Source: Paraburkholderia sp. IMGN_8 (lineage in GTDB: Bacteria; Pseudomonadota; Gammaproteobacteria; Burkholderiales; Burkholderiaceae). From it: a stretch of DNA of 64,000 nucleotides. The stretch is from the NCBI RefSeq assembly GCF_038050405.1, contig NZ_CP150901.1, positions 3,410,001 through 3,474,000 of the forward strand. Reading direction: 5' to 3'. The notes under the pieces were generated by a model that was not told where the DNA came from, searched no databases, and saw only the letters and a program-made list of their open reading frames with translations. Within the stretch, counting starts at the first letter, position 1. Each line of letters starts with the position of its first letter. Of the stretch, positions 30,866 through 50,046 are shown piece by piece. A program made the translations under genes and the position numbers.

Positions 30866-31153
30866 ATGGCTTCAATCACAGTGAATGACCTGACGCTGAA
30901 CCTCGCGCTCGACCGTAAAGCGATGGCGGCGATTCGCGGCGGCGGCGGTGCGCCGTGGGTGTACGGCTGGATTCAGCCCTATGTGCGGGAAACACCTAGC
31001 ATCGGACCGGTCGTCAACCTGTACGAGGTCTCGAACAACTTCTATGCTAACCAGATGATCAACCAGTTCCAGTCGGTCGATGTCCGCAACACCGGCGCGA
31101 ACTCGAACATCAGTGTCTCTCCCGACGCACGCAGCAGAAACGATACGGTGTAG
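30866..31153 (+). CDS. Double-glycine-leader peptide 1 (exported peptide precursor)
   Basis: A 95-residue precursor. The first 26 residues end MAAIRGG and align without gaps with the leaders of the genes at 43169, 49481 and 49828. They show the hydrophobic residues at -4, -7 and -12 and GG at -2/-1 that C39 peptidases recognise. The 69-residue core starts GGAPWVYGWIQPY, is aromatic-rich at first, then Asn-rich (VRNTGANSNISV), and resembles the core of peptide 2. CGGAGAT precedes the ATG, and a sigma-54 promoter lies upstream. The PP2C gene starts five bases after its stop. Role: signal or bacteriocin, unknown. Confidence 0.8.
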   Translation: MASITVNDLTLNLALDRKAMAAIRGGGGAPWVYGWIQPYVRETPSIGPVVNLYEVSNNFYANQMINQFQSVDVRNTGANSNISVSPDARSRNDTV

Positions 31154-31158
31154 ACGTT

Positions 31159-31929
31159 GTGACCTGTGCGAGCCAATTTCGATGGACGTCGTCCGCGCGT
31201 TCCGACGTCGGACGCGTCCGCGAAATCAACGAAGATGCCTGCCTCGACCAGCCCGAACTCGGGCGTTGGGCCGTCGCCGACGGCATGGGCGGGCACGCGG
31301 TCGGCGATCTGGCGAGCCGGCTGGTGATCGATACGTTGAGCAGGCTCCCGCCGCCGGTGGGCATGAAAGCCTTGATCGCCGACGCGCGCGTCCGGCTGCA
31401 AAAGGCCAACCGCCAACTCAGGAACGAAGCGGCGCGCCGCCAAGTGCAGCGAATCGGCAGCACCGTGATCGTGCTGCTCGCGTGCGACCGCTTCTGCGGT
31501 TATCTGTGGGCGGGCGATAGCCGTCTCTATCTGCATCGTGATGGGCAATTGCGGCAACTGACGCGCGACCATAGCCAGATAGAAGAACTCAAATCGCTAG
31601 GCGTCATCACCGACGAACAGGCGCGGCACCATCCGGCTCAGCACATGATTACGCGCGCCGTCGGCGCCACGGACCGGCTCGAACTCGACGACGATGTCAT
31701 CGAAGTCGCGGACGGCGACGTCTTCCTGCTATGCAGCGACGGCCTGAGCAACGAAGTCACCGATGAGGAAATGCTCGCCGTGCTGACCACGGTGGAGTGC
31801 AAGCGCGCCCCCGAAGAACTGGTCGAACTGGCGCTCGCGCGCGGCGGGCGCGACAACATCACCGCCGTGGTGGTGCAGGCCGAGGATCTCAACGCGTCTG
31901 ACAAAACGCTGCTCAACCCGGCGCCTTGA
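31159..31929 (+). CDS. PP2C-type protein serine/threonine phosphatase
   Basis: A 256-residue PPM phosphatase with all metal motifs: VGRVREINEDACL, VADGMGGHAVGD, LLCSDGLSNEV and GGRDNITAVVV. Such stand-alone phosphatases reverse the action of Hanks-type kinases, as PppA does on PpkA in type VI secretion. Here the partner is presumably the kinase at 47052-49202. The GTG start lies five bases after the peptide gene, so both share the sigma-54 promoter. No type VI genes are in the window. Confidence 0.92.
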   Translation: MTCASQFRWTSSARSDVGRVREINEDACLDQPELGRWAVADGMGGHAVGDLASRLVIDTLSRLPPPVGMKALIADARVRLQKANRQLRNEAARRQVQRIGSTVIVLLACDRFCGYLWAGDSRLYLHRDGQLRQLTRDHSQIEELKSLGVITDEQARHHPAQHMITRAVGATDRLELDDDVIEVADGDVFLLCSDGLSNEVTDEEMLAVLTTVECKRAPEELVELALARGGRDNITAVVVQAEDLNASDKTLLNPAP

Positions 31930-31945
31930 TGGCGTGGGTGCGGCG

Positions 31946-33304
31946 TCAACTATCGCTACCCTCTTCTTCACCGTCGTCGTCGGCACCGTTGTTGCCGGGC
32001 GGCGGCGAGTTCCGGTTGCGAAAGTCTTTCGAATGCAAGCCATGCTTCTTCAGCAGCATTTGCAGATGCGAGCGGTTCATGTCGATGCGCCGGGCCAGTT
32101 CGGCGACCGTGCCGCTCACTTCGCGAAGGCCGCGCTCCAGGAACGCTTTTTCCGCATCGTCGCTGGCGGCCCGCTTGGCGTCGCTCAGCGACATCAGATT
32201 CGCCACGCTGATTTGTTCGTGGCCGCCAGCCGTAGTTCCTGCATTGGCAGCCGCCCCGGCCGAACCGGGCGCAGCCGGCCGCATATCCACCGGCAGATGA
32301 TCGATATCCGCCATGTCGCCGGCGAGGCACGACACGCGATACATCACGTTGCGCAGCTCGCGGATATTGCCCGGATAGGCATAGTTGAGCAGAAAGTCGC
32401 GCAGCCGCGGCGTCAATCGCACGGGCCGGCGCTTCAGCGTGCCGGCGGCCTCGTCGCCGAACCATGCAATCAGCAGCGGAATCTCGTCGCGTCTCTCGCG
32501 CAGCGGCGGCAGTGTGACGTGAATCACGCTGAGCCGGTAGAACAGGTCCTCGCGAAACTTGCCCTCCTCGCTCAGTTGCCGCAGATTGCGATTGGTCGCC
32601 GCGACGATGCGCGTATCGACGGCAATCGTTTCGTCGGAGCCCACGCGCTGAATCTCATGCGCCTCCAGCACGCGCAACAGCTTCACCTGGCCGGCCAGCG
32701 GCAACTCGCCGATTTCGTCGAGAAAGATCGTGCCGGTATGCGCGCTTTCGAACTTGCCTTTGCGGTCGCCCGATGCACCGGTGAACGCGCCCTTGCGATG
32801 TCCGAATAATTCCGACTCGAGCAGATTGTCGGGAATCGCGCCGCAGTTGACGGAGATAAACGGCTTGTCCGGCCGCCCGCCGTTCGCGTGAATCACCTTC
32901 GCCATCAGCTCCTTGCCGGTGCCGCTTTCGCCGTCGATCAGCACCGGCAGGTCGGTGGGCGCCGCTTTTTCGGCGATTTCGAGCGATTCGAGCAGACGCG
33001 GATTGTCGCCGAACGTACCCTCGAAAATGAAGCTGCGCTCGAGCAAGGCTCTTCTGCGCGCGCCGCGCGATTGATCGACATGCGCGGGCTCGGCGGCCGT
33101 CGCGGCTTGCACGAAGCGCTCCTTGTGCGAAAGCTGCATCACCTCGTCACGCAGCGAAGTGGCCTGCCTGAGCAGCTTGTCGATGTCGGCGCGCTCAAGC
33201 CGCGACGACCAGCGCAGCGTCGAGCGCAAAATCTCGATCCGCTCGATCAGGCCCGCGTACGAAATCGCCGGGCTGGCCTCTTCAATCTGGTCGAGTATCT
33301 TCAT
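31946..33304 (-). CDS. Sigma-54-dependent transcriptional activator without receiver domain
   Basis: A 452-residue bacterial enhancer-binding protein. An unassigned N-terminal region (1-~110) replaces the usual receiver or PAS domain. The AAA+ core has Walker [10 protein letters not shown], the sigma-54-contacting GAFTGA loop, Walker [13 protein letters not shown] and the R-finger region [19 protein letters not shown] Fis-type HTH ([14 protein letters not shown]) and an acidic tail end it. The ATG overlaps the exporter's stop codon (TGATG), so translation is coupled. It probably drives the -24/-12 promoters in this locus. How it is switched is unknown; phosphorylation by the local kinase is a hypothesis. 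Confidence 0.93.
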
Positions 33305-36300
33305 CACGCGCTCAACTGTTTCTGGACCAGCTGGTAGTACATGCCGCCACGCTGGATCAGTTCATCGTGCCGGCCCTGCTCGACAATCGCACCTTCATAC
33401 AGCACGAGAATCTTGTCCGCGCGCATGATCGTGCTGAGCCGATGCGCGATGATCACCGCGGTTCGGCCCTTCAGAATGTCGTGCATATTGCCGAGGATAT
33501 TGCTTTCCGATTGCGAGTCCAGCGCGGAGGTGGCTTCGTCGAATACCAGCAGACGCGGATCGTGATACAAGGCCCGCGCGATGCACAGGCGCTGAATCTG
33601 CCCGCCGGATAAACCAATGCCGCGTTCGCCGACAATCTGCTCGTAACCGAGCGGCATCTTGCTGATGAACGCGTGCGCGTCGGCCATCTTCGCGACTTCT
33701 TCGATGCGGCGCCGTTCGGGCGCGTCGTCGCCGCTCGCGATGTTCTCGGCAATCGTGCCGGAAAACAGCAGATTGCTCTGCATCACGTAGCCGATCTGTG
33801 CCCGGTAATACGCCTTATCGACCACGCCGAGATCGTAGCCGTCGATGGTCATCTTGCCTTCGGTCGGCGCATAGAAGCCGACCAGCAGTTTGGCGAGCGT
33901 GGTCTTGCCCGAGCCGCTGCGGCCCACAATGGCCACCAGCTCGCCGGGCTTGATGTCAAAGCTGATATTTTCGAGTACATAGGCGGAGTCGTTGTCGCCG
34001 TAGCGGAAATAGACCCCGTTAAGGCTGATTTCACCTTGCAGTTCGGGCAGCATCACGCGCGAGGGCAAATCCTCCGGCTTCTGCTCCGGTTCGATATCGA
34101 GCACGTCGCCGAGCCGCTCCATTGCGACGCCCGCGTCGTTCAACATGCTCCACAAGCCGACCAGCCCCATCAGCGGACCCAGCACACTGCCCATGAACGC
34201 GTTGAACGCAATCAGCTGACCAATCGTCATTTCGCGCGCCAGCACCAGATTCGCGCCGACCCAGAGAATCGCGATCGTGGTCGCGGCGTTCAGCAGCTGG
34301 CTGCCGAGCCCGACGAGAATATTGAATGCATGCGCGCGATACTGAACCTCGAGCGCCTTCGCGTACTTCTTTTCCCAGCGCAGCCGCACCGGCCGTTCGA
34401 TACCCATGCCCTTGACGGTTTCCGCGCCCGCGAGCGCTTCCATCAGAAACGCCTTCGAATCAGTCGAGGCGGTGAATACTTCGCGCGCGTAGTTCTTGAT
34501 CTTCGGCGTGGCCAGTGCCGTCAGCGCCATGATCGGAATGACGAACGCGATCAGCACCAGCGTCATCTTCACGTTGTAGACGAACATGATCGTGAAGTAG
34601 ATGAACACCATCAGCAGATTCAACGCGGTGGTCACGGTGGATTCGGTGAGGAAGGCGCGGATCGTCTGGTTCTCCTGGAAGCGCGCGAAAATGTCGCCGG
34701 TCTTGCGCTTGGCGAAGAACGAGAACGGCAGCGACATCGTGTGCCTGAAGAACTGCGACATCATCGAGAAGTCCATGTTGCGCACCATGAAATTCGCCAG
34801 ATACGCACGAATCGACGACATCAATTGCGAAAACACGCTCGAAATAATCAGGCCGGCAATCAGCAGATGCAGCAGGCTCACGTTCTGATGCACGATCACG
34901 CCGTCGAGAATGTTCTGGATGATCAGCGGCGGAATCACGCCGAGCACCTGAATGACGAAAGTGGCGAGGAACAAGTGCCCAAGAATTTTCTTGTACGGCC
35001 TGAGGTAGCCGACAAAGCGTATCCACGGCGAACGCGAAGCCGACATCTGCAACAGATTCGGGCCACCGGTAAACAGCAGGCAGGTGCCGCTCCAGCCACG
35101 CTCGAAATCTTCAACCGCCATTTTTCTGAAGCCGAGCGCCGGGTCGGCGACCCATACATAGTCCTTCGAGACTCCGTACACCACGACGTAGTGGTAGCCC
35201 TCCCAATGCACGATGAACGGCAGGTCAAAGCCGCGCAACGAGTCGAAGGTGCATTGCACGCCGCGCGCGGTGAAACCGAGCGATTCGCCGGCGCGCGCGA
35301 GGCTGTCGAGGGTTGCGCCCTGAGTCGTGACGTTGGCGAGTTCGCGCAGTTTGCCGAGCGTCATCGGAATGCTGTAGTGACGGCACACCATCGCGAGGCA
35401 CGCGGCGCCGCAATCCATTTCCTCGGCCTGCTCGACCAGCGCAAAGCGCTTGATGACCTTTTCCCCGAACTCGGGCTTGGTCTGCAAATCGAGCATCAGC
35501 GGCAATTTGCGCCGCTGTTCGAGCCGCTTTTGCCGCTGCAGTTCACGGTCGCCGTAACGAATCCGCTCGTCGAGCACTTCGCGCAGCTTCGGATTGCGTT
35601 CGAGGATGAAGTGGACAGTGCGCTCGGGAATCACCAGCAACCGCGTATCGGTCGTTGCCACCACCGAAGCCATCTGTTCCTGGCGCATCAAACACGCTTT
35701 CTCGCCGAAGATTTCGCCCTGGTCTAGCGTAGCGAGCGTGTAGTCATGGCCTTCCTCATGCCGCACGATGCGCACTTGCCCTTGCCGCACCACATAGAGC
35801 CGCCGGTCGTCGCGCCCGTCCTGCTTGAGAATCTCCTTGCCGGCGGCCACGCGTTTTACGCCGACGCTGCGCACATATTCTTCGAGTTCCGCCTTGTTCA
35901 GCTTGCCGCGCAGATCGAACAGCTGCGCGACGAAACCGCCTGCCGAATTGATCGCCACATAGCTCGCGATAAACGCCTGCGCGGCTTGATTACCGGCGAT
36001 CACCGGCTCGATCGCGGCGCGTGGAATGAACAGCAGCTCGGTTTTCGCCGACGCCCGCACCGACGCTTCGTGCACATAGGCACGCAACATCGCGATGTCG
36101 GCGAAGATCTCGCCGGCCTTGCGCACGCCCATGCTGGTTTCCTTGCCGTGTTCCTCGGTGAAAATGCGCACGGAACCGGAACGAACCACGTACAAACCGT
36201 CGGCCGCCTCGCCTGCGGAGCACACCGTTTCGCCGAACGAATAGAAGCGCGCTTGCGCATATTCGGCAAGACGTTCGATCTCGTCGCGCGAAAACGGCGA

Positions 36301-36360
36301 AAGAATCTCCACCGAGGTCAGAAACTCGGCAGCGGACGGCGCGGTCTGGGGTGCATCCAT
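33304..36360 (-). CDS. C39 peptidase-ABC exporter with two N-terminal cNMP-binding-like domains
   Basis: A 1018-residue bacteriocin/peptide exporter. Order: two cyclic-nucleotide-binding-like domains (about 10-125 and 150-265), C39 peptidase (305-440; oxyanion Gln and Cys in EQAEEMDCGAACLAM, His in GYHYVVVYGV, Asp in VADPALG), six-helix membrane domain (455-735) and ATPase (GRSGSGKTT, LSGGQIQRL, LVFDEATSALD). The peptidase should cut double-glycine leaders such as those of the four local peptides. HetC of cyanobacteria has a similar plan. In both cNMP domains the Arg that normally binds phosphate seems replaced (HEASV and QMASV), so a different ligand or none is likely. Confidence 0.95.
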   Translation of the reverse strand: MDAPQTAPSAAEFLTSVEILSPFSRDEIERLAEYAQARFYSFGETVCSAGEAADGLYVVRSGSVRIFTEEHGKETSMGVRKAGEIFADIAMLRAYVHEASVRASAKTELLFIPRAAIEPVIAGNQAAQAFIASYVAINSAGGFVAQLFDLRGKLNKAELEEYVRSVGVKRVAAGKEILKQDGRDDRRLYVVRQGQVRIVRHEEGHDYTLATLDQGEIFGEKACLMRQEQMASVVATTDTRLLVIPERTVHFILERNPKLREVLDERIRYGDRELQRQKRLEQRRKLPLMLDLQTKPEFGEKVIKRFALVEQAEEMDCGAACLAMVCRHYSIPMTLGKLRELANVTTQGATLDSLARAGESLGFTARGVQCTFDSLRGFDLPFIVHWEGYHYVVVYGVSKDYVWVADPALGFRKMAVEDFERGWSGTCLLFTGGPNLLQMSASRSPWIRFVGYLRPYKKILGHLFLATFVIQVLGVIPPLIIQNILDGVIVHQNVSLLHLLIAGLIISSVFSQLMSSIRAYLANFMVRNMDFSMMSQFFRHTMSLPFSFFAKRKTGDIFARFQENQTIRAFLTESTVTTALNLLMVFIYFTIMFVYNVKMTLVLIAFVIPIMALTALATPKIKNYAREVFTASTDSKAFLMEALAGAETVKGMGIERPVRLRWEKKYAKALEVQYRAHAFNILVGLGSQLLNAATTIAILWVGANLVLAREMTIGQLIAFNAFMGSVLGPLMGLVGLWSMLNDAGVAMERLGDVLDIEPEQKPEDLPSRVMLPELQGEISLNGVYFRYGDNDSAYVLENISFDIKPGELVAIVGRSGSGKTTLAKLLVGFYAPTEGKMTIDGYDLGVVDKAYYRAQIGYVMQSNLLFSGTIAENIASGDDAPERRRIEEVAKMADAHAFISKMPLGYEQIVGERGIGLSGGQIQRLCIARALYHDPRLLVFDEATSALDSQSESNILGNMHDILKGRTAVIIAHRLSTIMRADKILVLYEGAIVEQGRHDELIQRGGMYYQLVQKQLSA

Positions 36361-36386
36361 GTGCTTCTCGACCTCGATTCGGCGTC

Positions 36387-36440: not shown

Positions 36441-36450
36441 GGCCTTTAGG

Positions 36451-37203
36451 TTATCGCGCTTCGATCACATGTTCCTGCGCGCGCGCAATTAGCCAGCTCT
36501 CGCGCAGCAGACGCTTCACTTCAGAGGCGACGTCCGCATCGAGCGTCGCCGGATACTTGGCTGTCACGGCGAAAATCTCGAAGCACGTGCGGTCCGCCGA
36601 CGGAAACGGCCCGAGCAGATCGCCCACCGCCGCGTTGAAAATCTTCGCCTCGATATCCGGCTTCAGCGAACCGCGCAACACCTTGCCGATCACACCGCCG
36701 GCTTCGCGCGTATCGGCGATCGAATGCTCGCGCGCCATGTCGGCGAAGCTGTCCGGATCGTCGTGCAGATAGGAAATCATTTCCTTCGCCTTGCCCTCGC
36801 TGTCGAGCACGATATGGCTCACCTCGATCGCGTCGAACTTCGGCGAATTCAGCGCGAAGTAGTCCTTGATCGCCGCCTCGTTGCCGACTACGTCGAGCAT
36901 CTTTTCCTGATACAGCCCGTCGGTGATGAACGCTTCGAATTCGTCGAGACTCACGTTGAGCACATCGAGGTACTGATTCATGTCCGTCGCGCGATGCAAA
37001 CCGCGCACGCGGCGGAATTGATCGGCGCGCTGCTGGATTTCGTCCGCTGTCACAACGATGCCCTGCTTCTTCGCCGCGTGCACCGTGAGCTTGTCGCGCA
37101 CGATCTGCTCGATCAGGCTCTCGAACTGGCCGGTCAATTTCAGAAGACGAATGAACTCGGCAACGTCCACGACTTCTTCATCGATTCGCACTATCGCGGT
37201 CAT
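36451..37203 (-). CDS. PpiC/SurA-like peptidyl-prolyl isomerase
   Basis: A 250-residue protein. An N-terminal helical SurA-like part (about 1-125, FESLIEQIVRDKLTVHAAKK) is followed by a parvulin-type domain with VSHIVLDSEGKA, SFADMAREHSIADTREAGG and the C-terminal LGPFPSADRTCFEIFAV. No signal peptide is visible, so it may act in the cytoplasm. Parvulin-like genes recur next to HlyD/ABC peptide exporters, where they may help fold or present cargo. The ATG giving MTAIVRIDEE has an AAAGGAG site, 37 bases after the HlyD stop. Confidence 0.85.
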   Translation of the reverse strand: MTAIVRIDEEVVDVAEFIRLLKLTGQFESLIEQIVRDKLTVHAAKKQGIVVTADEIQQRADQFRRVRGLHRATDMNQYLDVLNVSLDEFEAFITDGLYQEKMLDVVGNEAAIKDYFALNSPKFDAIEVSHIVLDSEGKAKEMISYLHDDPDSFADMAREHSIADTREAGGVIGKVLRGSLKPDIEAKIFNAAVGDLLGPFPSADRTCFEIFAVTAKYPATLDADVASEVKRLLRESWLIARAQEHVIEAR

Positions 37204-37240
37204 GTCATCCGCTCCTTTAATTGACGTGTGAGCTGCGTTA

Positions 37241-38614
37241 TCAGCCGGCAACCTGCCTGAACGGGTCCAGTCCGAGGTCGATCAGGCGCCGCTCGCGCAC
37301 CACGATCTCCGCGCTCGCGGTCATGCCATAGCGCAACGGGTAACGGGTGCCGGCGATCTGATAGGACTTGTCTTCGAGCATGACGCGGCCTTCGTACACC
37401 GGCTGCTTGTCCTGCGCGGAAGGTTTGGTCGCCGGCGAAATGTAGACAAGCGTGCCTTTGATCAATCCGTAACGCTGGTAGGGGAACGCACTGAACTTCA
37501 GCTTCACCGGCAAGCCCTCGTGCAGAAACGCACGATCGTGTTCGGCGATCTCGATCTTCAGCACGGGCTGCGCATCCTTCGGCGCGATGCCGCCGAGCGG
37601 CGCGTTCGCCTGGATCTTGTCGCCGCGTTGTGTCGAGGTGACATCGGTGACAACGCCTGAGACCGGCGCGAGAATCAGCAGGAAGTTGTCTTTGTCGATG
37701 TTCTCGAAGCGAATCCGCGCGGCGGCTTCGGCCACGAGGCGCGCGGTTTGCAATTGCAGGCGCACCTTGTCTTCCGCGTCGGTGATATCGCGTACCGCGG
37801 AGTCGTACTGGAGTTGCAGGTCGGTGGTCTGCTGCCCGCTGGTTTCGAGTTGCGCGTTGGCCAGCGCATATTCGTGGCTCAAGCGGAAATCCAGTTCTGC
37901 GAGTTTCGATTGCGCGACGCGGTAGGCGTTGTCCGCTTCCATCGCGGCGGTTCGTTTCTGCTCCACCTGAAGTTCGGCGATGCCGCCGCCGCCCGGCTGT
38001 GCGAACAGGCGCGAGTACCTGTCCAGTTCCTGGCGCGCTGCCTCGCGCGTGCGGCGGGCGTTGTCGAGCACGCTGCGCGCCTGGTCGAGTTCGGCTTTCT
38101 GCCCTTCGGCGAGCTTGGTCGTGCCCTCGGACACGCGGTTTTCGTGCTGACGCGCTTCCACTTCGATCTGCGCCTTCAGCGCGGCTGCCTTACGCTCCAT
38201 CAGCGCCTTCTTCTCGGGGAACTGCTTCCAGTCGCGCTCGGCGTCTTCGAGCTTGAGCTGCGCTTGCAGCGCGTTGCTGGCCGCTTCGATCGCGCCGCGT
38301 GCGTTAAGCCGCGCCAGCACGTCGCCCTTCTGCACCGGCTGCCCTTCGGCGATGTACAGATCGGCGAGTTCGCCGTCGATCGGCGCATAGATGCGGCGCA
38401 CTTCCGAGTCCGGCGACAAAGTCCCTTGCGCGCTGACGATCACATCCGCGCGGCCGACGAACGACCACAGCAGGCCGGCCACCACCAGCCCGGCCATCGC
38501 CCAGATCAGCGCGCGCGCGAGCCGCACCGGTTCGGCGGTCAGGATCGCGATGCCTTCGACGCTGTGGTCCTCCAGCGCCTCCGACAACGGTCTAGGGTGA
38601 CTGTCGCGCTTCAC
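37241..38614 (-). CDS. HlyD-family membrane fusion protein
   Basis: A 457-residue periplasmic adaptor. A cytoplasmic N terminus is followed by one membrane helix (about 32-52) and lipoyl half-motifs (RIYAPIDGELADLYIAEGQ and LAPVSGVVTDV). Between them lies a long coiled coil (110-300), and a beta-barrel region reaches the C-terminal MTASAEIVV. It bridges the exporter to an outer-membrane factor. The GTG start overlaps the FHA gene by 23 bases and has a GGAGG site. Length and layout fit peptide/toxin type I secretion. Confidence 0.93.
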   Translation of the reverse strand: MKRDSHPRPLSEALEDHSVEGIAILTAEPVRLARALIWAMAGLVVAGLLWSFVGRADVIVSAQGTLSPDSEVRRIYAPIDGELADLYIAEGQPVQKGDVLARLNARGAIEAASNALQAQLKLEDAERDWKQFPEKKALMERKAAALKAQIEVEARQHENRVSEGTTKLAEGQKAELDQARSVLDNARRTREAARQELDRYSRLFAQPGGGGIAELQVEQKRTAAMEADNAYRVAQSKLAELDFRLSHEYALANAQLETSGQQTTDLQLQYDSAVRDITDAEDKVRLQLQTARLVAEAAARIRFENIDKDNFLLILAPVSGVVTDVTSTQRGDKIQANAPLGGIAPKDAQPVLKIEIAEHDRAFLHEGLPVKLKFSAFPYQRYGLIKGTLVYISPATKPSAQDKQPVYEGRVMLEDKSYQIAGTRYPLRYGMTASAEIVVRERRLIDLGLDPFRQVAG

Positions 38615-41440: not shown

Positions 41441-42946
41441 TTATTTGTCCTTGGCTTGCGCTTGCACGTCGACGCTCGGCCAGCCGCCGCCCAACGCTTT
41501 ATAGAGCAGCACCGTGTCGGACAGAATCAACTGATGGTTCGCGAGCAGCGCCTGCTGCGCTTCCAGAAGCGTCCGTTCGGTTTCGAAAACTTCGAGCTGC
41601 GACACCACACCGAGACGCAGTTGCGCCTGGATCTGGTCGGCGACGATTTGCAGGCGCGACACCTGCTCCTTCAATTGCACGCGTTGCTCCTTGTGCGAAT
41701 TCAGATTGACCAGCGCGTTTTCCACTTCCTCGAACGCGCCCATCACGGCGACGCGATACTGCTGTTCGGCCACCGTCGATTGGGCCTGCGTGACCTTCAC
41801 ATGGGCTCGCACGCCGGGATCGAGCAGCGGAATGTTGATACTCGGCATGAAACCGAACGTGAACGATTTCAGCAGGTCGGTCAGCGCGAAACTGGCGGTG
41901 CCGCCGTGACCGGTCAGACTGATGGTCGGCAGTTGCGCGAGCTTGGCTTGGCCGACGAGATCGTAGGATTCCAGCACTCTGAATTCGGCGGCCACCACGT
42001 CGGGGCGCCGCGCGAGCAGTTGCGCCGGCAAACCGTCGGGCACGGAAGGCAGTTGCACGCGTTGCTGCAAATGCCCTTTAGGCAGCTGGAATTCGCCGGC
42101 CGGCACGCCGAGCAGCGTGCATAGCGCGTTGTTCGCGAGATCGCGCGAGCGGCGCAGTTCGAGCAACTGGTTCGTCAAGCGGTTGATCTCGGCTTGCTGA
42201 CGCAACACCTGGGTCTGCGGTATGAGACCGTTGCGGCTCTGGCCGTCGTAGATCGTGAGAATCTGCTTGTTCGTGACGAGCGTTTTCTGCTGCTGGTCGA
42301 TCTGGTCGTCGAATTGCAGGATCTGGAAATAGGTGCTCGATACGTTCGAGACCAGTTCCAGATAGCCGGCTCGCCAATCCGCCTCGGTCGCATGGAACTC
42401 GGCCTTTTGCGCCTGCACGCCCTTCTCCACTTTGCCCCAGATGTCGATGTCCCAGTTCACCTGGGTGGCGACGTTGTACTGTTTGGAGAAAGTCTGGCGT
42501 GTGGTCTTTTCGAAATCGGCGCCTGCGCCGAGATCCATGGTCGGCAATGCGCCTGCTTTCGCCTCGCCGATCTGCGTGCCGGCGACGTCGATACGCGCGG
42601 CCAGCACCTTGATGTCGAAGTTGCCCGCAATCGCTCTCGCGATCAGCGTGTCCAGATAGGGATCGTGGAAGCCTTTCCACCAGTCGGGTTCGATGGTCGC
42701 GGCCGCCAACACCGGCGAGCCCTTCTGATCCGACCATGACGCCTTGGCCGGTGTGTCGGGCCGCTTGTAATCGGGCATGCTGACGTCGACACACGCGCAC
42801 AGCAGCAGTGCGCACGAAGCCGCGGCGCCGAGTCCTCGTATCGCCGCGGCAACGCGCTTCGCACCCGACGGCTGAAATGCCGCGCCGCACTGCGCCAATG
42901 AATTGCAAAAGCGCTGACGGACCGATGAATCAAGCAACGCTGACAC
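41441..42946 (-). CDS. NodT-family outer-membrane efflux lipoprotein (TolC-like)
   Basis: A 501-residue outer-membrane factor. The N terminus has a lipobox-like LLLCACV (Cys near residue 51) after an unusually long leader, so the true start may be further in. Two repeats of the TolC/OEP family follow, including EPDWWKGFHDPYLDTLIARA and NNALCTLLGVPAG. It would complete a type I channel with the HlyD adaptor and C39 exporter. It lies upstream of the FHA operon in the same direction, 266 bases away. Confidence 0.92.
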   Translation of the reverse strand: MSALLDSSVRQRFCNSLAQCGAAFQPSGAKRVAAAIRGLGAAASCALLLCACVDVSMPDYKRPDTPAKASWSDQKGSPVLAAATIEPDWWKGFHDPYLDTLIARAIAGNFDIKVLAARIDVAGTQIGEAKAGALPTMDLGAGADFEKTTRQTFSKQYNVATQVNWDIDIWGKVEKGVQAQKAEFHATEADWRAGYLELVSNVSSTYFQILQFDDQIDQQQKTLVTNKQILTIYDGQSRNGLIPQTQVLRQQAEINRLTNQLLELRRSRDLANNALCTLLGVPAGEFQLPKGHLQQRVQLPSVPDGLPAQLLARRPDVVAAEFRVLESYDLVGQAKLAQLPTISLTGHGGTASFALTDLLKSFTFGFMPSINIPLLDPGVRAHVKVTQAQSTVAEQQYRVAVMGAFEEVENALVNLNSHKEQRVQLKEQVSRLQIVADQIQAQLRLGVVSQLEVFETERTLLEAQQALLANHQLILSDTVLLYKALGGGWPSVDVQAQAKDK

Positions 42947-43168: not shown

Positions 43169-43453
43169 TCAGGCGATGTAGATGTTGTTGCTGTTGCTCA
43201 CATGTGGGTTGATCGTGGTGGTGGTGCCAACATCGAACGCTGCGTTGTTGCCGTTCGCGTTCTGAATGTTCATCGTCGTGTTGATCAGTTGGGTGGCGTC
43301 GACCCTCTTGCTGTTGTCCGGTGCATACACCGGCGCGAAGCTGAAGTACCACGACGGCGGATAGTCGTAGCCGAAACCACCGCGCACGGCACGCATGACC
43401 TTGCTGTCGAGTTGTTCGGTGATGGACAGGTCTTTGATCGTCAGCGTGTTCAT
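43169..43453 (-). CDS. Double-glycine-leader peptide 2 (exported peptide precursor)
   Basis: A 94-residue precursor with the same 26-residue leader pattern (MNTLTIKDLS to AVRGG). The 68-residue core begins FGYDYPPSWYFSFAPVY, aromatic-rich like peptide 1, and ends in an Asn/Thr-rich stretch (NPHVSNSNNIYIA); the two cores look homologous. The ATG has a CAGGAGAT site, and a -24/-12 promoter lies about 66 bases upstream of it in transcript terms. The peptide should be cut after GG and exported by the local ABC system. Confidence 0.8.
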   Translation of the reverse strand: MNTLTIKDLSITEQLDSKVMRAVRGGFGYDYPPSWYFSFAPVYAPDNSKRVDATQLINTTMNIQNANGNNAAFDVGTTTTINPHVSNSNNIYIA

Positions 43454-43528: not shown

Positions 43529-43545
43529 CGCATGGGCTGTGCCAG
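43529..43545 (-). promoter_or_regulatory. Sigma-54 (-24/-12) promoter of peptide gene 2
   Basis: On the minus strand CTGGCACAGCCCATGCG, a full TGGCAC -24 box and TGC -12 box with exact GG-N10-GC spacing. The implied leader of ~66 bases is similar to that of peptide gene 1 (~53). Confidence 0.75.
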
Positions 43546-43570: not shown

Positions 43571-43744
43571 TGCAGAAAGGCCATAGATAAAGGGCTGGCG
43601 GGATACGGTCCCGCTAAGTGCATCGAGATGGCGGTAAAGCGCCGAGCGGGAAATGGTGGATCGCAACCAACAACACGCGCGGCCGTGTTGGCCGGAACGA
43701 GACACTGTGGACGCCACGCCGCGCGGCGATGCCTACGCGCAGCG

Positions 43745-44179
43745 TTACCGCGCGATGACCGTGATCTTCTTCGAGTAAACCGGGGGATTGTGCGGGATAT
43801 GCATGGCGTCGCCCATCAGCAACTGCAAGGTGTGCTTGCCGGGCGCCAGTTGAATCATCGTTTCCGTTTCGCCCGCGCCGAAATGCAGATGGTTGCGGTC
43901 GGATGGAATTTCCTGGTCCATCGGCGGCAGGTCGGTGTCGATCAGAAGGTGGTGGTGTCCGGTGTTCGGATACTTGACGCCTTTGGGCGCCACGCCCATG
44001 AAGCGCAAGCCGAACCACACGCGAAAAGGCTTGTTGGCGGGCACCACCTGACCGTCGTTCGGATACCCGATATATGCATGCGCGCCGGCCGGCGCAGGCG
44101 TCGTGCCGCCCAGGACGAGGTTCGGCGAGGTCAGTGCAGCCAGTGTCACAAGCGCCGCGATCGCGATGTTCCTGTACAT
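43745..44179 (-). CDS. Exported DUF4399 protein (1)
   Basis: A 144-residue periplasmic protein. The signal peptide (1-24) is followed by a single DUF4399 domain with VWFGLRFMGVAPKG, NTGHHHLLIDTDLPP, HLHFGAGETET and HTLQLLMGDAMHIPH. The His clusters hint at metal binding, but the family has no known function. A GGAGAG site precedes the ATG. It lies 53 bases after its paralogue, so the two form a pair. Confidence 0.9.
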   Translation of the reverse strand: MYRNIAIAALVTLAALTSPNLVLGGTTPAPAGAHAYIGYPNDGQVVPANKPFRVWFGLRFMGVAPKGVKYPNTGHHHLLIDTDLPPMDQEIPSDRNHLHFGAGETETMIQLAPGKHTLQLLMGDAMHIPHNPPVYSKKITVIAR

Positions 44180-44232
44180 GAAAGGCTCTCCGTCCTGACG
44201 GACCCGCGTTGAATCAACGGGTCGCGCGAATC

Positions 44233-44718
44233 TTATTGCACGTTGATGGTGATCTTCTTCGAATACACGGGCGGCACGTGCGGCACGTGGTTGTGGTCGC
44301 CGAGAAGGAGCTGCAGCGTGTGCTTACCCGGCGGCAACTCGAGGCGCGCGTCCGTCTCGCCCGCGCCGAAGTGCAGGTGATTGCGGTCCGACGGGATTTC
44401 CTGGTCGAGCGGCGGCAGATCGGTGTCGATCAGCAGATGATGGTGACCGGTGTTGGGAAAAACAACGCCCTTCGGACACACGCCCATGTTGCGCAGCCCC
44501 ATGCGCACCCACAGCTTGCCGCCGTGAATCACCGCGCCGTCCGGCGGCCAGATGATGTACTCCTCGGCGCCCGGCACGGATGCGGTTTGCTCGGCGAGCG
44601 CGGATCCGGACAGCGCCGCGATGCCGAGCAGGGTGAAAAGCGCGGTGCGGAGAACGGAAGACCGCGCGCGCACCCGATGCCGTGTGTTGAGCACGCCCGG
44701 TGTGAAGGTTATTCGCAT
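44233..44718 (-). CDS. Exported DUF4399 protein (2)
   Basis: A 161-residue paralogue of the next gene. The N-terminal signal (to about residue 42, SGSALAEQ) precedes a DUF4399 domain with NTGHHHLLIDTDLPPLDQE and HTLQLLLGDHNHVPH. The start at ATG 44718 fits a GGGAG site that lies inside a stem-loop (44722-44740). Function is unknown; it is predicted to be periplasmic. Confidence 0.88.
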   Translation of the reverse strand: MRITFTPGVLNTRHRVRARSSVLRTALFTLLGIAALSGSALAEQTASVPGAEEYIIWPPDGAVIHGGKLWVRMGLRNMGVCPKGVVFPNTGHHHLLIDTDLPPLDQEIPSDRNHLHFGAGETDARLELPPGKHTLQLLLGDHNHVPHVPPVYSKKITINVQ

Positions 44719-44721
44719 TGC

Positions 44722-44740
44722 CCACTCTCCCAAAGAGTGG
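44722..44740 (-). promoter_or_regulatory. Stem-loop masking the ribosome site of DUF4399 gene 2
   Basis: Perfect 7-bp stem (CCACTCT / AGAGTGG) with a 5-base loop just before the ATG at 44718. The GGGAG ribosome site is split between loop and stem, so translation could depend on melting or a binding factor. Confidence 0.5.
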
Positions 44741-45076
44741 CCCGGGCGCCTTTGTTGCACGAGACGCGGGCCGCGCGCTCCGGCTGGTTTTGCGGGCGCA
44801 CGCGTGGTCGGACGGCCGCGGCATGCAAAGGCCGTGCTGCGTTACTTGGTGATTTAGCTTAGGACGTAACTTGCCAAAAAGAAACGACACGCTCGTTAAC
44901 CTTATGACGACACACGGACGGTTGTGACCCGCAAATCGCGTGCTATCGTTATTTATAGCTTGTCGATGAATGGCCGACAGCAGCGTTGATGCCCCGTGTG
45001 ATGCGCTTCAACAGCCGCTGCCGGCGTCGCGGTCGTCGAATACCTATGTTCTGTCCGGAACAAACAGGATTTGAAT

Positions 45077-47020
45077 ATGTGGCGAATATTCCTGCTGGTG
45101 TGCATGGCCGGGGCAATTCAGGTGCATTGGAGCGGCGCGTATGCCGCAGCGCAGCGTAACGGCGCGGAGGCCGGCGTCGCGGCTGTGACGGCCGACCTGC
45201 CGGACAAAGACCATTCCCGGCGTATCGCGCTCGTAATCGGCAACGGCGCGTATGGCAACGACACAAATCCGCTTCGTGAGAATGCACCACGCGACGCCCA
45301 GGCGTTGCGCGATCAACTGCGCTCGCTCGGCTTCGACGTCATCATGCGTATCGACGCGACACCGCCGCAGATGCAACAGGCCATCGCCGAATTCCGCCAA
45401 CGTCTGCAGGCAGGCGGTGTCGGGCTCTTCTATTTCGCGGGACATGGCATGCAAGCCGGCGGGCAGACGCTGTTGATCCCGGCCGGCATCGACATGCGCT
45501 CACCGGCGCGGCTGATTGGCAAAGGCGTCGACTTGCGCACCGTGTTGCAAGCGATGCGCGCGCCGCGCGCCGATCCGTTGAATCTCGTGATCCTCGATAC
45601 GTGCCTGAACGATCCGTTCGCGGCTCACGCAACGCCCGGCGCGTATGCGCTTCCCGGCAATACGCTGCTTGCTTACGCAACAGCGCCGGGCGGCTTTGCA
45701 GCAGACGGCGTGCGTCATGGCGTCTATACGAGCGCATTGCTGCGTGCCCTTGCCGACGCTCCGTCGCAGAATCTCGCTGGCTTGTTTCAACGCATCGCGG
45801 CAGAGGTTCACAAGGACACCGGTGGTGAGCAAAGCCCATGGATGGTTTCATCGTTGTCCAGGGCTTTTCGTTTGACCGTGTCTTCGTTCGGCTTCGCAGC
45901 CGCGCAGCTCACGGCCGCCACACTCGTTGAACCGGTTGTCAGGTTGCACAGCCGCGGCATCCTGCCGAAGGACAGCAGCGAGCAATACGAAATCACGTTC
46001 TGGAATTCGATCAAGGACAGCAACTACCCGAGCGACTACGAAGCCTATCTGAAGGCCTATCCGAATGGCCGCTTTGCCGCGCTCGCCCATGCGCGCATCG
46101 ACCGGTTGCGCGCCGCCGCGCCAACGAGCGCGCCCGCGCCGGCACCGCAAGCCGCGCGGCCAGCCGCGCCTGCCAGCGCAGCGCCGCCGGAACACCCGCG
46201 CTCGACGGCCACGCCAACACCCGTTGCGCCTACTCCCGCACCTGCAACCGCGCCTATCACCGCGCCGGCAGCCGCGCAAAAACCCGCAGCACGTCCAGCC
46301 AACGCCAACGAGAGCCGCGATTGCGCCACCTGTCCAATCATGATCGCCGTGCCGGCGGGCTCGTTCTCGATGGGTAGCAACACCGACGATCCCTCTGAGA
46401 AACCCGTCCATCACGTAACCATCGGCGCGCCGTTTGCGATCGGCAAATACGCGGTGACAGTCGAACAGTGGAACGCGTGCGCCGACGCCAACGCCTGTCA
46501 AAAGCTAACGCCCGAATCCAATTCCGTAAAGAACGCACCGGCACGCGACCTCAGCTGGGACGACGCGCAGCAGTACGTGAGATGGCTCAGCAAAGTGACC
46601 GGCAAAACGTATCGCTTGCCGACCGAGGCAGAATGGGAATACGCGGACCGCGGCGGCACCACCACGCAATACTGGTGGGGCGATCAGATGCGCAAGGGCA
46701 ACGCCAATTGCAAGGATTGCGGCGAGCCGTGGCACAAGGAAGGCCCCGAGAGCGTCGGCTCGTTCGCGCCGAATCCACTCGGCCTGTACGACATGAACGG
46801 CAGCGTCTGGGAGTGGGTTGGCGATTGCTGGCACAACTCGTACCAGAGCGCACCCACCGACGGCCATGCGTGGGATACGCCAGGCTGCGAGATGCGCGTG
46901 ATTCGCGGTGGCTCGTGGCGCGAAGGCGCGAATTACATGCTCAGCGCGACGCGCTTCAAATACAGCGCGAGCGTGCGCCAGTCGCAGGACGGCTTCAGGG
47001 TCGTCAAGGAACTCAAGTGA
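45077..47020 (+). CDS. Caspase-like (C14) protease fused to an FGE/SUMF1 domain
   Basis: A 647-residue exported protein. After a signal peptide (1-24) comes a caspase-fold domain (about 45-270) with catalytic His in FYFAGHGMQ and Cys in [10 protein letters not shown] linker with [20 protein letters not shown], a long Pro/Ala-rich stretch (about 350-410) and a C-terminal formylglycine-generating-enzyme-like domain (about 415-647; [33 protein letters not shown]) follow. Caspase-FGE fusions are known but functionally obscure. It lies between the DUF4399 pair and the kinase gene. A TTG six bases upstream is an alternative start. Confidence 0.88.
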
Positions 47021-47051
47021 TTCAGGTGCCGCGGATGAACTTGCGCACGAA

Positions 47052-49202
47052 TCAGGGCGCGCGCGGCTTCGTCGTGATCTGCGCAAAATCGGCGACGACG
47101 TGGTCCTGACCGTACTTGCCGGCGATTTGCGCAAGGCGCGTGTCGAGCGCGCGCAGATAGTCGGCGTGCGCTTCGCTCTCCGGCCGCGGCTTGTCGAATA
47201 GCGGCGCCGGCGTAATCAACAACACCACCATCTCCGTTCCGAACGGCTTCGAAATGATCCAGTCGCCCGCGCTGCCGATCGTCGCGGCGTAGCGCGGCGG
47301 CGCCTGATTGTCCTTCGCGCGCGGGCTCGGCACCATATGCACGACGCTGCCGTCGAGCTGGTAGTAGTCGAGGTTCACGTACGAGTCGTAAGCAGGCGTC
47401 GTCACGTCGACGACGAGCGGATCGCCTTCACTCAACTGGCCGCCGGGCGGGCGCACATGCAGCGCCGCGACGTGGCCGGCTTGCCAGTTGCGGGTCCAGT
47501 ACGGAGCGAGCGCTTTGATCGTGTCGCATTTGTCGTCGGCGAGCGGCTCGACTTCGAGCGCGAGCGTGTCGACGCCCGGCAGTGCGGCCAGCGTGTCCTT
47601 CAGATGTGCGGCGCCGTAGCGTTGCGAGACGTAGCCGCGCACCGTCAATGAGTGGTCGTGTGCCGAACCGGCCAGCGCCGAACATGGAACCTGCGCCAGT
47701 ACCGGCGCCACGGCGGCTAACGTAAGCGCCGGCTTGGGCGCGGGCGGGGGTTGCGCGACGGGTGGCGCTGCGGGCGGCCCGGCAGTTGGAGCCGGCTCAG
47801 GCGTGCTCGCCACCGTTGCCGTGGACACAGGCGGTGCCGCCGAAGCCGCCTGATCCGCTAAAGGCTGCGAAGCCGATGTAACCGCCGGCGTCCCGCCTTG
47901 CCGGTCCTGCGACGACCGGAACGCCAACACGCCGACAACCGCCGTGCACAACACAGCCAAACTCGCGAAGCCCACCTTCACCCACATCCCCGACTTCTCG
48001 GCACGCGCTTCGTTATCGAACTCCGCGATGAAGCGCGCCACGCTCGGCATGCGCGTGTTGCGATCGAACGAAAGCGCCGCGCGCAACGCGCGCCATTGTT
48101 TCGTGTCGAGATTGGCGGGCCGCTGCGGTTTGAAATCCGCACTGCGCGCCTGCGTCGCCGACAGTCGATCGAAGGGGTGGTGGCCGGTCAACAGCTCGTA
48201 GGTGATGCAGCCGAGCGCATAGATGTCGTCGCGCGGGTCTGGCTCGAGATGTTCCAGCATTTCCGGACTCGCGTACGCGGGCGTCAACGCGCCGAGGCTG
48301 CCGGGATCGAAGACGGTTGCGTCGGTCTCCTCCTCCGGCCGCTGGAAGACGCGCGCGATGCCGAAGTCGATCACCTTCACTTCCGCGCTGGTCGTCAGGA
48401 ACACGTTGGCGGGTTTGAAATCGCAATGCACGAAGCCGTGTTCGTGCGCATAGGCGAGCGCATTGCACATGCCGCGCACGATCGGCAGCGCGGCGCGCAC
48501 CGGCATGCCTTTGTAGCCGGGCGTGCGCAACAACAGGCTCAACGGCTTGCCGGTCAGATACTCCATCGTCAGGTAGACGATCGGCCCATCGCGGTCGAAG
48601 TCGTACACCGTGATGATGTTGCGATGCGCCAGCACCTGCGCCTTGCGCGCCTCGCGTTGCAGCGCGACGAGCGAGTTCGGGTTGCCGCGGAACTGCAAGT
48701 TGAGCACCTTGATTGCGACATACGGCTTGCGATCCGAAGCTTCGAGCTTGCGCAGATCGAGCGCCTTGTACACCGTGCCCATCCCGCCGACGCCCAGACA
48801 TTCCTCGAGAACGAAGCGGTTATTCAGCGTGTCGCCGGTGCCTTTGACCTGGTCGTGCCCCGAGGGGTTGATCCCGCCTGCCGCGCCTGCGGCGTTCGAT
48901 GAGCTCGAGGCGCTCGCGGAACTCGCAGACGACTCGGACGGAATCTCGATCGCCGTCTGCAGGCCGGTTTCCTCGCCGCCCGCCGCCACGTTGGAGACAC
49001 GCAACTGTTCGATCCGCCGCCGCACTTCCGCGTACAGATCGTCGGGCAGCGGGGTTTTGCGATGTGCGGTGCCAAGCACCTCCAGCAGCTGCGTCGGACC
49101 GAGCCCTTCGGTCGTCAACGTGCTGTCGAGTTGAGCAACGAACTCGTCGCGTGACAGCTCGCCGCTCTGAAAGTCGCGAATCACATGCGCAAGGCTAGCC
49201 AT
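47052..49202 (-). CDS. Transmembrane Hanks-type serine/threonine kinase (PpkA-like)
   Basis: A 716-residue kinase. After a ~130-residue N-terminal region comes the kinase domain (about 135-400): GVGGMGTVYKA loop, VAIKVLN lysine, FVHCDFKPANVF catalytic loop, VIDFGIARVF and YASPEMLEH. One membrane helix (about 415-435), a Pro-rich linker and an extracytoplasmic part with a DUF4384-like domain (GDPLVVDVTTPAYDSYVNLD) follow. In the catalytic loop the usual Arg before Asp is Cys (HCD), a non-RD form. With the PP2C phosphatase and FHA protein it makes a threonine-phosphorylation circuit. Confidence 0.93.
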   Translation of the reverse strand: MASLAHVIRDFQSGELSRDEFVAQLDSTLTTEGLGPTQLLEVLGTAHRKTPLPDDLYAEVRRRIEQLRVSNVAAGGEETGLQTAIEIPSESSASSASASSSSNAAGAAGGINPSGHDQVKGTGDTLNNRFVLEECLGVGGMGTVYKALDLRKLEASDRKPYVAIKVLNLQFRGNPNSLVALQREARKAQVLAHRNIITVYDFDRDGPIVYLTMEYLTGKPLSLLLRTPGYKGMPVRAALPIVRGMCNALAYAHEHGFVHCDFKPANVFLTTSAEVKVIDFGIARVFQRPEEETDATVFDPGSLGALTPAYASPEMLEHLEPDPRDDIYALGCITYELLTGHHPFDRLSATQARSADFKPQRPANLDTKQWRALRAALSFDRNTRMPSVARFIAEFDNEARAEKSGMWVKVGFASLAVLCTAVVGVLAFRSSQDRQGGTPAVTSASQPLADQAASAAPPVSTATVASTPEPAPTAGPPAAPPVAQPPPAPKPALTLAAVAPVLAQVPCSALAGSAHDHSLTVRGYVSQRYGAAHLKDTLAALPGVDTLALEVEPLADDKCDTIKALAPYWTRNWQAGHVAALHVRPPGGQLSEGDPLVVDVTTPAYDSYVNLDYYQLDGSVVHMVPSPRAKDNQAPPRYAATIGSAGDWIISKPFGTEMVVLLITPAPLFDKPRPESEAHADYLRALDTRLAQIAGKYGQDHVVADFAQITTKPRAP

Positions 49203-49480
49203 TTTTGCGAAGTGCCGCCGCTGCCGTTGGACCGGGTCGCATGCGACCGGAGCCAGTCGGGCTAGTAAAAAACCTGTCGTAACCAGTTACATGTGCCGCT
49301 TCGATACTAGCCCCGGACCCACGCTTTCGCAAACCAGGATTGCCCCGCTGCGGGCACGCCATATCGATGTCGCGAGATATCCAACAGCATGCGGCGCCCT
49401 GTTGGGCGCGCGCCATCATCCACGGATCGCGCGCTTCGCCCCGATCATGCCCGTCTTCCGCGTACCCTTGGAGAATCACC

Positions 49481-49627
49481 ATGTCATCCCTCATGATTCG
49501 CGATCTGTCCCGCACCCGCAAGCTCGACCGCCACACGATGCAAGCTGTGGTCGGCGGCACCGTCAGCAGCGTGCCCGGCCTACCGTCGGTGGCAGGCCTT
49601 GGCGGCATCGTCAACGTCAACGTTTGA
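49481..49627 (+). CDS. Double-glycine-leader peptide 3 (short core)
   Basis: A 48-residue precursor. The 26-residue leader (MSSLMIRDLS to AVVGG) aligns without gaps with the other three. The core is only 22 residues, TVSSVPGLPSVAGLGG then IVNVNV, hydrophobic and Gly-rich. TTGGAG precedes the ATG. I see no convincing -24/-12 promoter for it. It is divergent from the kinase gene and 200 bases before peptide 4. Confidence 0.75.
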   Translation: MSSLMIRDLSRTRKLDRHTMQAVVGGTVSSVPGLPSVAGLGGIVNVNV

Positions 49628-49827
49628 CGCCGCGCAGTAGCGAAGGACTGGGGAACTTCCCTACTGCAGATTGTTGGTATGCAACAGGCGGGCCGCAAGC
49701 AGATTTCCTATACTGGTAGGTGCGAGGAGACCTCAGCACACTTTCACGACTCGACCCGGGCGGCCGCCGAACCATCGCTCCATCGAAGCGAACCGGCGGC
49801 CGACTCGTGTTCTTCTCTGGAGCCACC

Positions 49828-50046
49828 ATGGCAAAGCTCGTCATCAAGAACCTCACCGAGAGCGTCGAACTTGACCGCCAGGCCATGGCTGCAATCGTCG
49901 GCGGAGCGCGGATCGGTGCGCGCTTGAGTTTTGCCGCGCAACCGGCGCCAGGCTCACCGCGCGTCGTCGAGTTTCCACCGGGTTTTCCCGCAGCGCACCA
50001 GGCAATCGCCGACATGGCTGTGCCGCGCAAACCGTCGCGCGGCTAG
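49828..50046 (+). CDS. Double-glycine-leader peptide 4 (Pro-rich core)
   Basis: A 72-residue precursor with the shared leader (MAKLVIKNLT to AAIVGG) and a 46-residue core that is Pro/Ala-rich and cationic (ARIGARLSFAAQPAPGSPRV). CTGGAG precedes the ATG. A weak -24/-12-like match lies upstream (GG at 49676-49677, GC at 49688-49689). A terminator-like hairpin follows the stop codon. Confidence 0.75.
   Translation: MAKLVIKNLTESVELDRQAMAAIVGGARIGARLSFAAQPAPGSPRVVEFPPGFPAAHQAIADMAVPRKPSRG

Follow-up and report, generated by a model that had tools for sequence, protein, structure and literature searches.

A candidate sigma54-controlled, multi-cargo peptide export locus with a C39 exporter and phosphorylation genes in Paraburkholderia and its relatives

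We analyzed a 64,000-nucleotide stretch of the Paraburkholderia sp. IMGN_8 genome (the window; bases 3,410,001–3,474,000 of contig 2 in a 9.1 Mb genome of two contigs), which carries a conserved set of some 15 genes that is found in Burkholderia-related soil bacteria and looks designed to activate, process and export a small group of mostly Asn-rich peptides. By Pfam, the parts beside the peptide genes are a PP2C phosphatase, a sigma54 activator, an ATP-binding cassette (ABC) exporter with a C39 peptidase, a peptidyl-prolyl isomerase (PPIase), an HlyD-type protein, a double-FHA protein, a TolC-type protein, two DUF4399 proteins, a caspase–FGE fusion and a protein kinase. We lean, with restrained confidence, towards reading the block as a sigma54-switched, phosphorylation-gated type I system whose peptides are cut after Gly26 and which works like the EbfG/PteB system of Synechococcus elongatus. 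A preliminary description of this DNA had proposed a multi-cargo peptide secretion system of unknown purpose; the export of several cargos is borne out by co-occurrence and selection, and the purpose is narrowed by the regulatory genes, on which that description was silent.

Leader peptides, exporter and upstream elements

The four small frames expected at 30866, 43169, 49481 and 49828 (here pep1 to pep4) are present, and they share a gap-free double-glycine (GG) leader of 26 residues. Its invariant residues M1, L9, L15, D16, M20, A22, G25 and G26, together with Ile or Val at positions 6 and 23, are as claimed in the preliminary description, and the leaders follow the rule of hydrophobic residues at −4, −7 and −12 before the cut (Ile/Val, Met and Leu, respectively) plus GG. 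These are the leader positions that the hydrophobic groove of LahT is reported to accommodate (PMC6363468). A DNA pattern for the leader, hydrophobic-Asp-x3-Met-x-Ala-(Ile/Val/Met)-x-Gly-Gly, was run on both strands of the 9,114,050-base genome and matched at four places only, all in this locus; the same pattern read backwards had zero matches there.

All the peptide families tested are under purifying selection, each median ratio of nonsynonymous to synonymous substitution (dN/dS) being below 0.5; the absence of such selection, named in the preliminary description as a refuting result, is thus not what the data show. By the simple Nei–Gojobori method, with each member compared with one reference, the leader/core medians were 0.10/0.10 for pep1, 0.35/0.49 for pep2a, 0.20/0.33 for the second pep2 copy (pep2b), 0.19/0.31 for pep3 and 0.10/0.38 for pep4.

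The cores span 39–76 residues and form four or five families. Asn makes up 14.5–15.4% of the pep1, pep2 and pep3 cores versus 2.8% across eight of the larger cluster proteins. These three cores have few charges; the pep4 core contains 0.6% Asn and is basic. The homology of pep1 and pep2 asserted earlier holds in a weak form: their core profiles, compared by hhalign without the leaders, scored 13.9 against a maximum of 9.4 in 50 column shuffles, with an E-value of about 0.01. The pep1 and pep3 cores gave 14.7 against a shuffle maximum of 7.5 (50 column shuffles, E about 0.01), and a homology of the pep2 and pep3 cores was rejected, the score of 5.5 lying below the shuffle maximum of 7.1.

As described before, a C39–ABC exporter lies between the peptide genes. 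The Gln, Cys, His and Asp of its C39 domain are in register with those of PCAT1 and are fused to ABC transmembrane and nucleotide-binding domains, which are the features of a peptidase-containing ABC transporter (PCAT). By these features the locus encodes a PCAT-driven type I system, predicted from sequence to cleave and export its peptides. The exporter stays under the NCBIfam cut-offs for bacteriocin_ABC (476.5 vs 523.85 bits), type_I_sec_HlyB (617.4 vs 725.55 bits) and NHLM_micro_ABC1 (553 vs 853.3 bits).

Upstream regions were scored against the sigma54 −24/−12 consensus, and mononucleotide shuffles, a less stringent control than dinucleotide shuffles, served for both elements and palindromes. 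The pep1 element has at most one mismatch in 26 of 41 loci versus 1 of 205 shuffles, and at most three in all 41 loci versus 16 of 205 shuffles; it stands 61–72 bp before the ATG in eight examples. The element of pep2a and pep2b is weaker yet conserved about 75 bp before the ATG, with at most three mismatches in 53 of 55 pep2a regions (shuffles 14/275) and 32 of 33 pep2b regions (shuffles 12/165), the pep2b set including one gene, from locus L071, of the orphan family discussed below. At the same threshold, pep3 (1/23 vs 4/115 shuffles) and pep4 (4/19 vs 6/95 shuffles) show little or no excess, and the best sigma54-type element upstream of pep3 in the window has six mismatches. The near-absence of an excess for pep3 fits its position following pep2b.

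Farther upstream, the palindrome CCAACA-N13-TGTTGG occurs with at most two mismatches in all 55 pep2a regions (shuffles 19/275) and in 32 of 33 pep2b regions (shuffles 17/165). Its spacer is mostly N13 (N14 in 12 cases, N10 in one), and it precedes the −24 element by 120–123 bp in 48 of the 53 scored pep2a and 26 of the 32 scored pep2b regions. A gapped palindrome upstream of pep1 was found with at most two mismatches in 36 of 38 regions versus 20 of 190 shuffles, with variable spacing. It should be noted that the exact palindrome word with spacers of N8–18 has three genomic occurrences, of which two fall within this locus, and that a reversed control also gives three; the bare word is therefore no evidence, and it is the conserved position that is. 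The locus encodes its own activator, which would bind the palindrome and the half-sites.

Conservation and co-occurrence

The locus was compared with 60 same-genus stretches and with 20 stretches that come from 19 other-genus genomes. An FHA match had been found in 64 other genomes, and the same-genus stretches represent all of these except G003, G023, G054 and G060; three loci (L073, L076 and L085) end at contig ends. By tblastn, the activator, exporter, PPIase, HlyD, FHA and TolC proteins are present in 60 of the 60 same-genus stretches, the caspase and DUF4399 proteins in 59, PP2C in 54 and the kinase in 49. In 51 of these loci the pep1 core occupies its expected position, and in 59 pep2 does. 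Many relatives carry several copies of pep2, up to four in tandem (L119), and in 32 of the 60 stretches pep2b lies between the kinase gene and pep3; the window has no pep2b.

Whole-genome searches led us to reject the idea that some relatives lack pep1, PP2C or the kinase. Five of the nine genomes without pep1 at its place were searched whole (the loci of the other four are L043, L086, L090 and L091), and all five carry pep1 beside PP2C further off; the distance from the pep1 stop to PP2C is 5 bp in the window and in all five genomes where the pair has moved from the exporter. PP2C was likewise found elsewhere in 5/5 of the six genomes with PP2C off the stretch (that of L090 excepted). The kinase lies outside 11 stretches, and it turned up in all ten genomes searched whole (that of L076 excepted), each time on the contig that carries the locus.

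The 20 other-genus stretches have all or part of the gene set, many with a full-length pep3. The half made up of the kinase, pep2, pep3 and pep4 is far from the exporter half in some of them (about 110 kb away on one contig in L120 and L121) and lies on the other side of it in L112–L115. Named records bearing the locus are labelled Paraburkholderia, Caballeronia, Trinickia, Cupriavidus and Burkholderia. A search of named records with the FHA protein gave 80 loci, of which 13 (L155–L167) were used; the other 67 (L168–L234) aligned with no more than a portion of the FHA region and were set aside as generic FHA proteins. The stretches of three of the 13 (L163, L165 and L167) contain no GG frame, and the regular-expression scans for such frames include spurious ones (e.g., in L113, L124 and L126). 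The same query returned four records of a plasmid collection, three from Caballeronia and one from Burkholderia stagnalis. A literature search, with subscription journals mostly outside it, found no title or beginning of an abstract describing the locus.

The co-occurrence of leader and exporter, proposed as a check in the preliminary description, holds. Among 299 genomes of the family, 104 have the exporter and 107 the peptides; all 104 exporter genomes carry peptides matching the pep2 profile (Fisher p 5e-78), and both sets span 8 of 25 genera. The three genomes with peptides only (G309, G341 and G413) are assemblies of 350–440 contigs. Among 369 genomes of the class, ten exporter matches were found at E ≤ 1e-180. 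The three near-orthologous ones (100, 73 and 69% identity) belong to exactly the three class genomes with peptides, and the seven remote ones (36–38% identity) are in genomes with no match to the peptide profile. The peptide profile thus tracks exporters of the close type; the remote exporters would carry other cargo, or none visible to the profile.

Parts of the locus extend beyond the family. In the loci with the 73 and 69% identical exporters (L140 and L141), the activator, PPIase, HlyD, FHA and TolC proteins are present. In six remote stretches with exporters 34–36% identical by tblastn (L142–L147, of which L146 and L147 share one genus), we found FHA in five, the sigma54 activator and HlyD in four each, PPIase in three and the caspase in one; cargo was not recognized in these loci. 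Tandem TolC-like proteins of about 650 residues occur there, of which Pfam confirmed three in L144, two in L146 and the single ones tested in L142 and L143. Since the remote loci keep these parts, the exporter, FHA protein and activator look like an old unit, and on present data the kinase–phosphatase pair appears firmly tied to the exporter only within Burkholderiaceae. An ATP-grasp (RimK-like) protein was also seen in the remote loci L142 and L145.

Gene content of the locus and further leader genes

The coordinates of the features are collected in Table 1.

Table 1. Features of the export locus and related genes of Paraburkholderia sp. IMGN_8 (window coordinates unless a contig is named; aa, amino acids; TM, transmembrane segment; cNMP, cyclic nucleotide monophosphate; TMD and NBD, transmembrane and nucleotide-binding domains).
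Feature	Coordinates	Strand	Basis and remarks
LRAT-domain (NlpC/P60-like) protein, peripheral	29922..30452	-	Pfam PF04970, E 3.5e-24
TGTTGG half-sites, tentative activator sites of pep1	30634..30677 (30640, 30672)	+	conserved blocks in 39 aligned upstream regions
pep1 −24/−12 sigma54-type element, TGGCATGCCACTTGCA	30787..30802	+	63 bp before ATG
pep1	30866..31153	+	26-aa GG leader and 69-aa Asn-rich core; most conserved cargo
PP2C Ser/Thr phosphatase	31159..31929	+	Pfam PP2C_2; 5 bp after pep1 stop
sigma54-dependent activator, AAA+	31946..33307	-	Pfam, E 1.7e-69; GAFTGA at residue 173
Exporter, 1018 aa	33304..36360	-	two cNMP-binding domains, peptidase C39, ABC TMD, NBD, in this order
PpiC/SurA-type PPIase	36451..37251	-	Pfam PF00639, E 3.9e-10
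HlyD-type membrane fusion protein	37241..38614	-	Pfam
Double-FHA protein: two FHA domains, TM (364–382), large C-terminal region	38592..41174	-	Pfam FHA, E 3.2e-29; TM by hydropathy
TolC-type outer membrane protein	41441..42946	-	Pfam OEP, E 2.5e-51
pep2	43169..43453	-	GG leader and 68-aa aromatic/Asn-rich core; start is the ATG at 43453
pep2 −24/−12 sigma54-type element	43529..43544	-	75 bp before ATG
Palindrome CCAACA-N13-TGTTGG, proposed activator site	43667..43691		122 bp upstream of the pep2 −24 element; no strand
DUF4399 protein a	43745..44179	-	Pfam
DUF4399 protein b	44233..44760	-	Pfam
Caspase-like (C14) and FGE-sulfatase (SUMF1-like) fusion	45071..47020	+	Pfam; FAGHG and DTC motifs
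Ser/Thr protein kinase, TM, DUF4384-like region	47052..49202	-	Pfam Pkinase, E 8.6e-40
Orphan palindrome	49381..49405		stands where relatives have pep2b; no strand
pep3 remnant	49481..49627	+	leader intact, core stops at codon 48
pep4	49828..50046	+	GG leader and 46-aa basic, Pro-containing core
Three related-leader genes	contig 2, ~3,527,600; ~3,528,000; ~3,063,800		pep2 profile matches

The core lengths reported earlier for pep1, pep2 and pep4 (69, 68 and 46 residues) are correct, and the 22-residue, Gly-hydrophobic core of the 49481 gene is no cargo class, because this gene is truncated. In relatives, 22 copies of pep3 have 90–102 residues and an Asn-rich core; the copies were picked by core motifs, which favors full-length ones, and 38 of the 60 loci gave none, some where the stretch ends. 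The window retains codons 1–48, that is, the leader and 22 residues, followed by a stop, and a tblastn search of positions 48901–50500 with one full-length relative found nothing better than E 0.36 for the rest. In the sister locus L038 a stop interrupts the pep3 leader. As pep3 is broken, the intact local cargo of this genome consists of pep1, pep2 and pep4.

On the whole genome, the pep2 profile finds the same four genes and three more outside the window: two in tandem and, about 464 kb from them, a similar copy. In their leaders, Leu-Ser and Leu take the place of the Leu-Asp and Met seen in the four, and their cores form one family (SNYNVAN...QNFGG) with IPTIQNFGG- or IPTVQNFGG-like ends. 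In two of the three, a sigma54-like element precedes the ATG by 65 bp. All three are likely to be further substrates of this exporter, and the genome probably encodes more than four cargos. In the locus of one relative (L071:19293–19878) we observed two paralogous peptides of this orphan core family, which links the family to the system.

The closest solved relative of the PP2C protein in the Protein Data Bank (PDB) is PppA, 6jkv (E 3.2e-64), the enzyme of the type VI secretion system (T6SS); the next solved PP2C follows at E 5.6e-38. In the double-FHA protein, the motif residues SRRHA, SR(R/H)HAH and NG are conserved in 15 sequences, and the kinase retains the catalytic Asp, Lys and DFG. At the edge of the locus, the LRAT protein has a match in 7 of the 20 other-genus loci, 7 of the 13 named loci and 1 of the 60 same-genus stretches, which mostly end short of it. 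Still further out, a beta-lactamase-family gene (Pfam Beta-lactamase2) and a divergent LysR-like frame (27778–28662 and 28762–29634) form an ordinary-looking pair.

Two other C39 regions of the genome were noted. At bases 3,843,000–3,857,999 of contig 2 (L130), a second C39–ABC exporter of 710 residues without a cNMP domain is accompanied by an HlyD protein and an 809-residue TolC-type protein; a regular-expression scan of these 15 kb found no GG-leader frame. At bases 1,052,000–1,066,999 of contig 1 (L131), a stand-alone C39 peptidase of 236 residues lies with a VpsR/sigma54 regulator and a weakly barrel-like protein whose Pfam match is just under the cut-off, a layout that may resemble the Fap functional-amyloid operon.

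Proposed mechanism, rival explanations and known systems

We propose the following model. The sigma54 activator of the locus would bind the palindrome upstream of pep2, and probably the TGTTGG sites upstream of pep1, and turn on pep2, as well as pep1 with the adjacent PP2C gene, from the conserved −24/−12 elements. The leaders would then dock on the C39 domain and be cut after Gly26, and the cores would leave through the ABC–HlyD–TolC channel. We are largely confident of this activator switch and of the cleavage and export. After translation, export would be gated: the membrane kinase would phosphorylate a component of the machine, the double-FHA protein would read the phospho-threonine and PP2C would reset it, which amounts to the threonine-phosphorylation logic of T6SS placed on a peptide exporter, while a nucleotide in the twin cNMP domains would set exporter activity. 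For this gating by phosphorylation and nucleotide, the case for and the case against seem to us evenly poised. Outside the cell, the mostly Asn-rich cores may act together as surface or matrix components, perhaps forming fibres, as EbfG1–4 do; we regard such a role, drawn by analogy, as possible but rather doubtful.

Several observations weigh against this model. PP2C lies outside 6 of the 60 same-genus stretches and so is not always beside the exporter, it is present in just one of the six remote stretches, and in L140 and L141 the 15.6–20 kb read contain neither kinase nor PP2C and the peptides are on other contigs. The HRD motif of the kinase reads HCD. Regarding regulation, the pep2 element of the window has three mismatches, the third outside gene, about 350 bp behind one of the two with an element, has no sigma54-like element, and an exact half-site is absent from the 400 bp read upstream of the three. 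As to the matrix role, the pep4 core is unlike the others in being basic; the AlphaFold models of pep1 and pep2 (mean predicted local distance difference test 35 and 52) are unreliable, so no fold supports the idea, and searches of the peptides against Pfam, NCBIfam and PHROG yielded no family that does, the two NCBIfam matches of pep1 (E 0.05 and 0.1) being far under the cut-off.

The peptides could instead be antibacterial bacteriocins resembling class II microcins and exported by the C39 type I secretion system (T1SS), a reading to which we assign a low probability. It would account for the GG leader, the C39 exporter, the several paralogous cargos with up to four tandem pep2 copies in L119, and for pep2 and pep4 cores that are less constrained than their own leaders; against it, pep1 has a core that hardly changes (dN/dS 0.10), and other genera retain the gene set. 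Moreover, the neighbours in the window are PP2C after pep1 and TolC after pep2, with no obvious immunity gene (relatives were not searched for such genes), and a set of kinase, phosphatase, FHA and caspase genes is not a known hallmark of microcins. It is similarly improbable, in our estimate, that the peptides are signals, that is, secreted pheromones sensed by the outer region of the kinase or by kin, as was proposed for the HetC exporter. The kinase does have a transmembrane segment and a DUF4384-like region, pep1 is strongly conserved and the cNMP–C39–ABC order is that of HetC, whose cNMP domain is reported to bind ppGpp (PMC10986499); in our judgement, however, cores of 39–76 residues in four or five families, with pep2 in several copies, exceed the needs of a signal.

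Maturation of the peptides before export by the PPIase, FGE-like or LRAT proteins, which would make them ribosomally synthesized and post-translationally modified peptides, has little to recommend it. In its favour, proteins with FGE and LRAT domains are encoded within the locus or next to it, and the PPIase shows a weak likeness to TIGR04500, "putative peptide maturation system", at 94.9 bits, where the cut-off is 180. The LanM/LanC, YcaO and radical-SAM families are absent among the cluster proteins scanned, and Cys occurs in 0 of 41 pep1, 0 of 22 pep3 (the window remnant left out), 0 of 19 pep4 and 15 of 88 pep2 cores. That the small frames resemble each other by chance and form no system is practically dismissed by the leader uniqueness, co-occurrence, 60-locus survey and dN/dS values; the shortness of the frames is all that speaks for it.

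Returning to the switched and gated export system, its boldest form would be a T6SS-type kinase–phosphatase–FHA switch wired to a C39 type I exporter as a secretion-and-assembly system in its own right. The sigma54 activator would couple the phosphatase to the most conserved cargo, the co-exported peptide families would form an extracellular structure across Burkholderiaceae, and versions in other gammaproteobacterial families would keep the exporter, FHA protein and often the activator with other, unseen cargo. We put this forward tentatively, as less probable than not on the whole. If true, soil- and plant-associated Burkholderiaceae would have a widespread secretion system with identifiable cargo, nucleotide-gated HetC-like exporters could be tested with known substrates, and a threonine-phosphorylation switch would be shown to control a machine other than T6SS.

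Comparison with known systems places the locus as follows. In S. elongatus, four small GG-leader proteins, EbfG1–4, are secreted through one C39 transporter, PteB; both biofilm and efficient secretion depend on its peptidase Cys, and EbfG1–3 are amyloid-prone (PMC4997328, PMC9981879). The likeness lies in the layout of several GG proteins and one C39 exporter, and the matrix function suggested here is a guess by this analogy; judged from its own genes alone, the Burkholderiaceae locus adds the sigma54 activator, FHA protein, kinase, PP2C, PPIase, caspase–FGE and DUF4399 proteins. HetC of Nostoc PCC 7120 has one cNMP domain before C39, which binds ppGpp and is needed for function, and its cargo is given as unknown (PMC10986499). 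Both are peptidase-containing ABC exporters of Gram-negative bacteria with the order cNMP–C39–ABC; the exporter described here differs in having two cNMP domains and likely cargo that can be identified, and since HetC binds ppGpp, nucleotide control of the twin domains is plausible. In T6SS, PpkA phosphorylates a component that is bound by Fha (PMC3953482). A membrane kinase, an FHA reader and a PppA-like PP2C are encoded together here too, but no T6SS family was found among the cluster proteins scanned, and the controlled machine would be a T1SS. With class II microcins (PMC9746304, PMC10233263) the locus shares the GG leader and C39 T1SS, and differs from them in its conserved cores, signalling genes and the lack of an obvious immunity gene in the window. 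Finally, PCAT1, LahT and ComA (PDB 4ry2, 6mpz and 8hf4) are related in C39 sequence and catalytic residues, whereas the N-terminal cNMP domains and the partner proteins distinguish the present exporter system.

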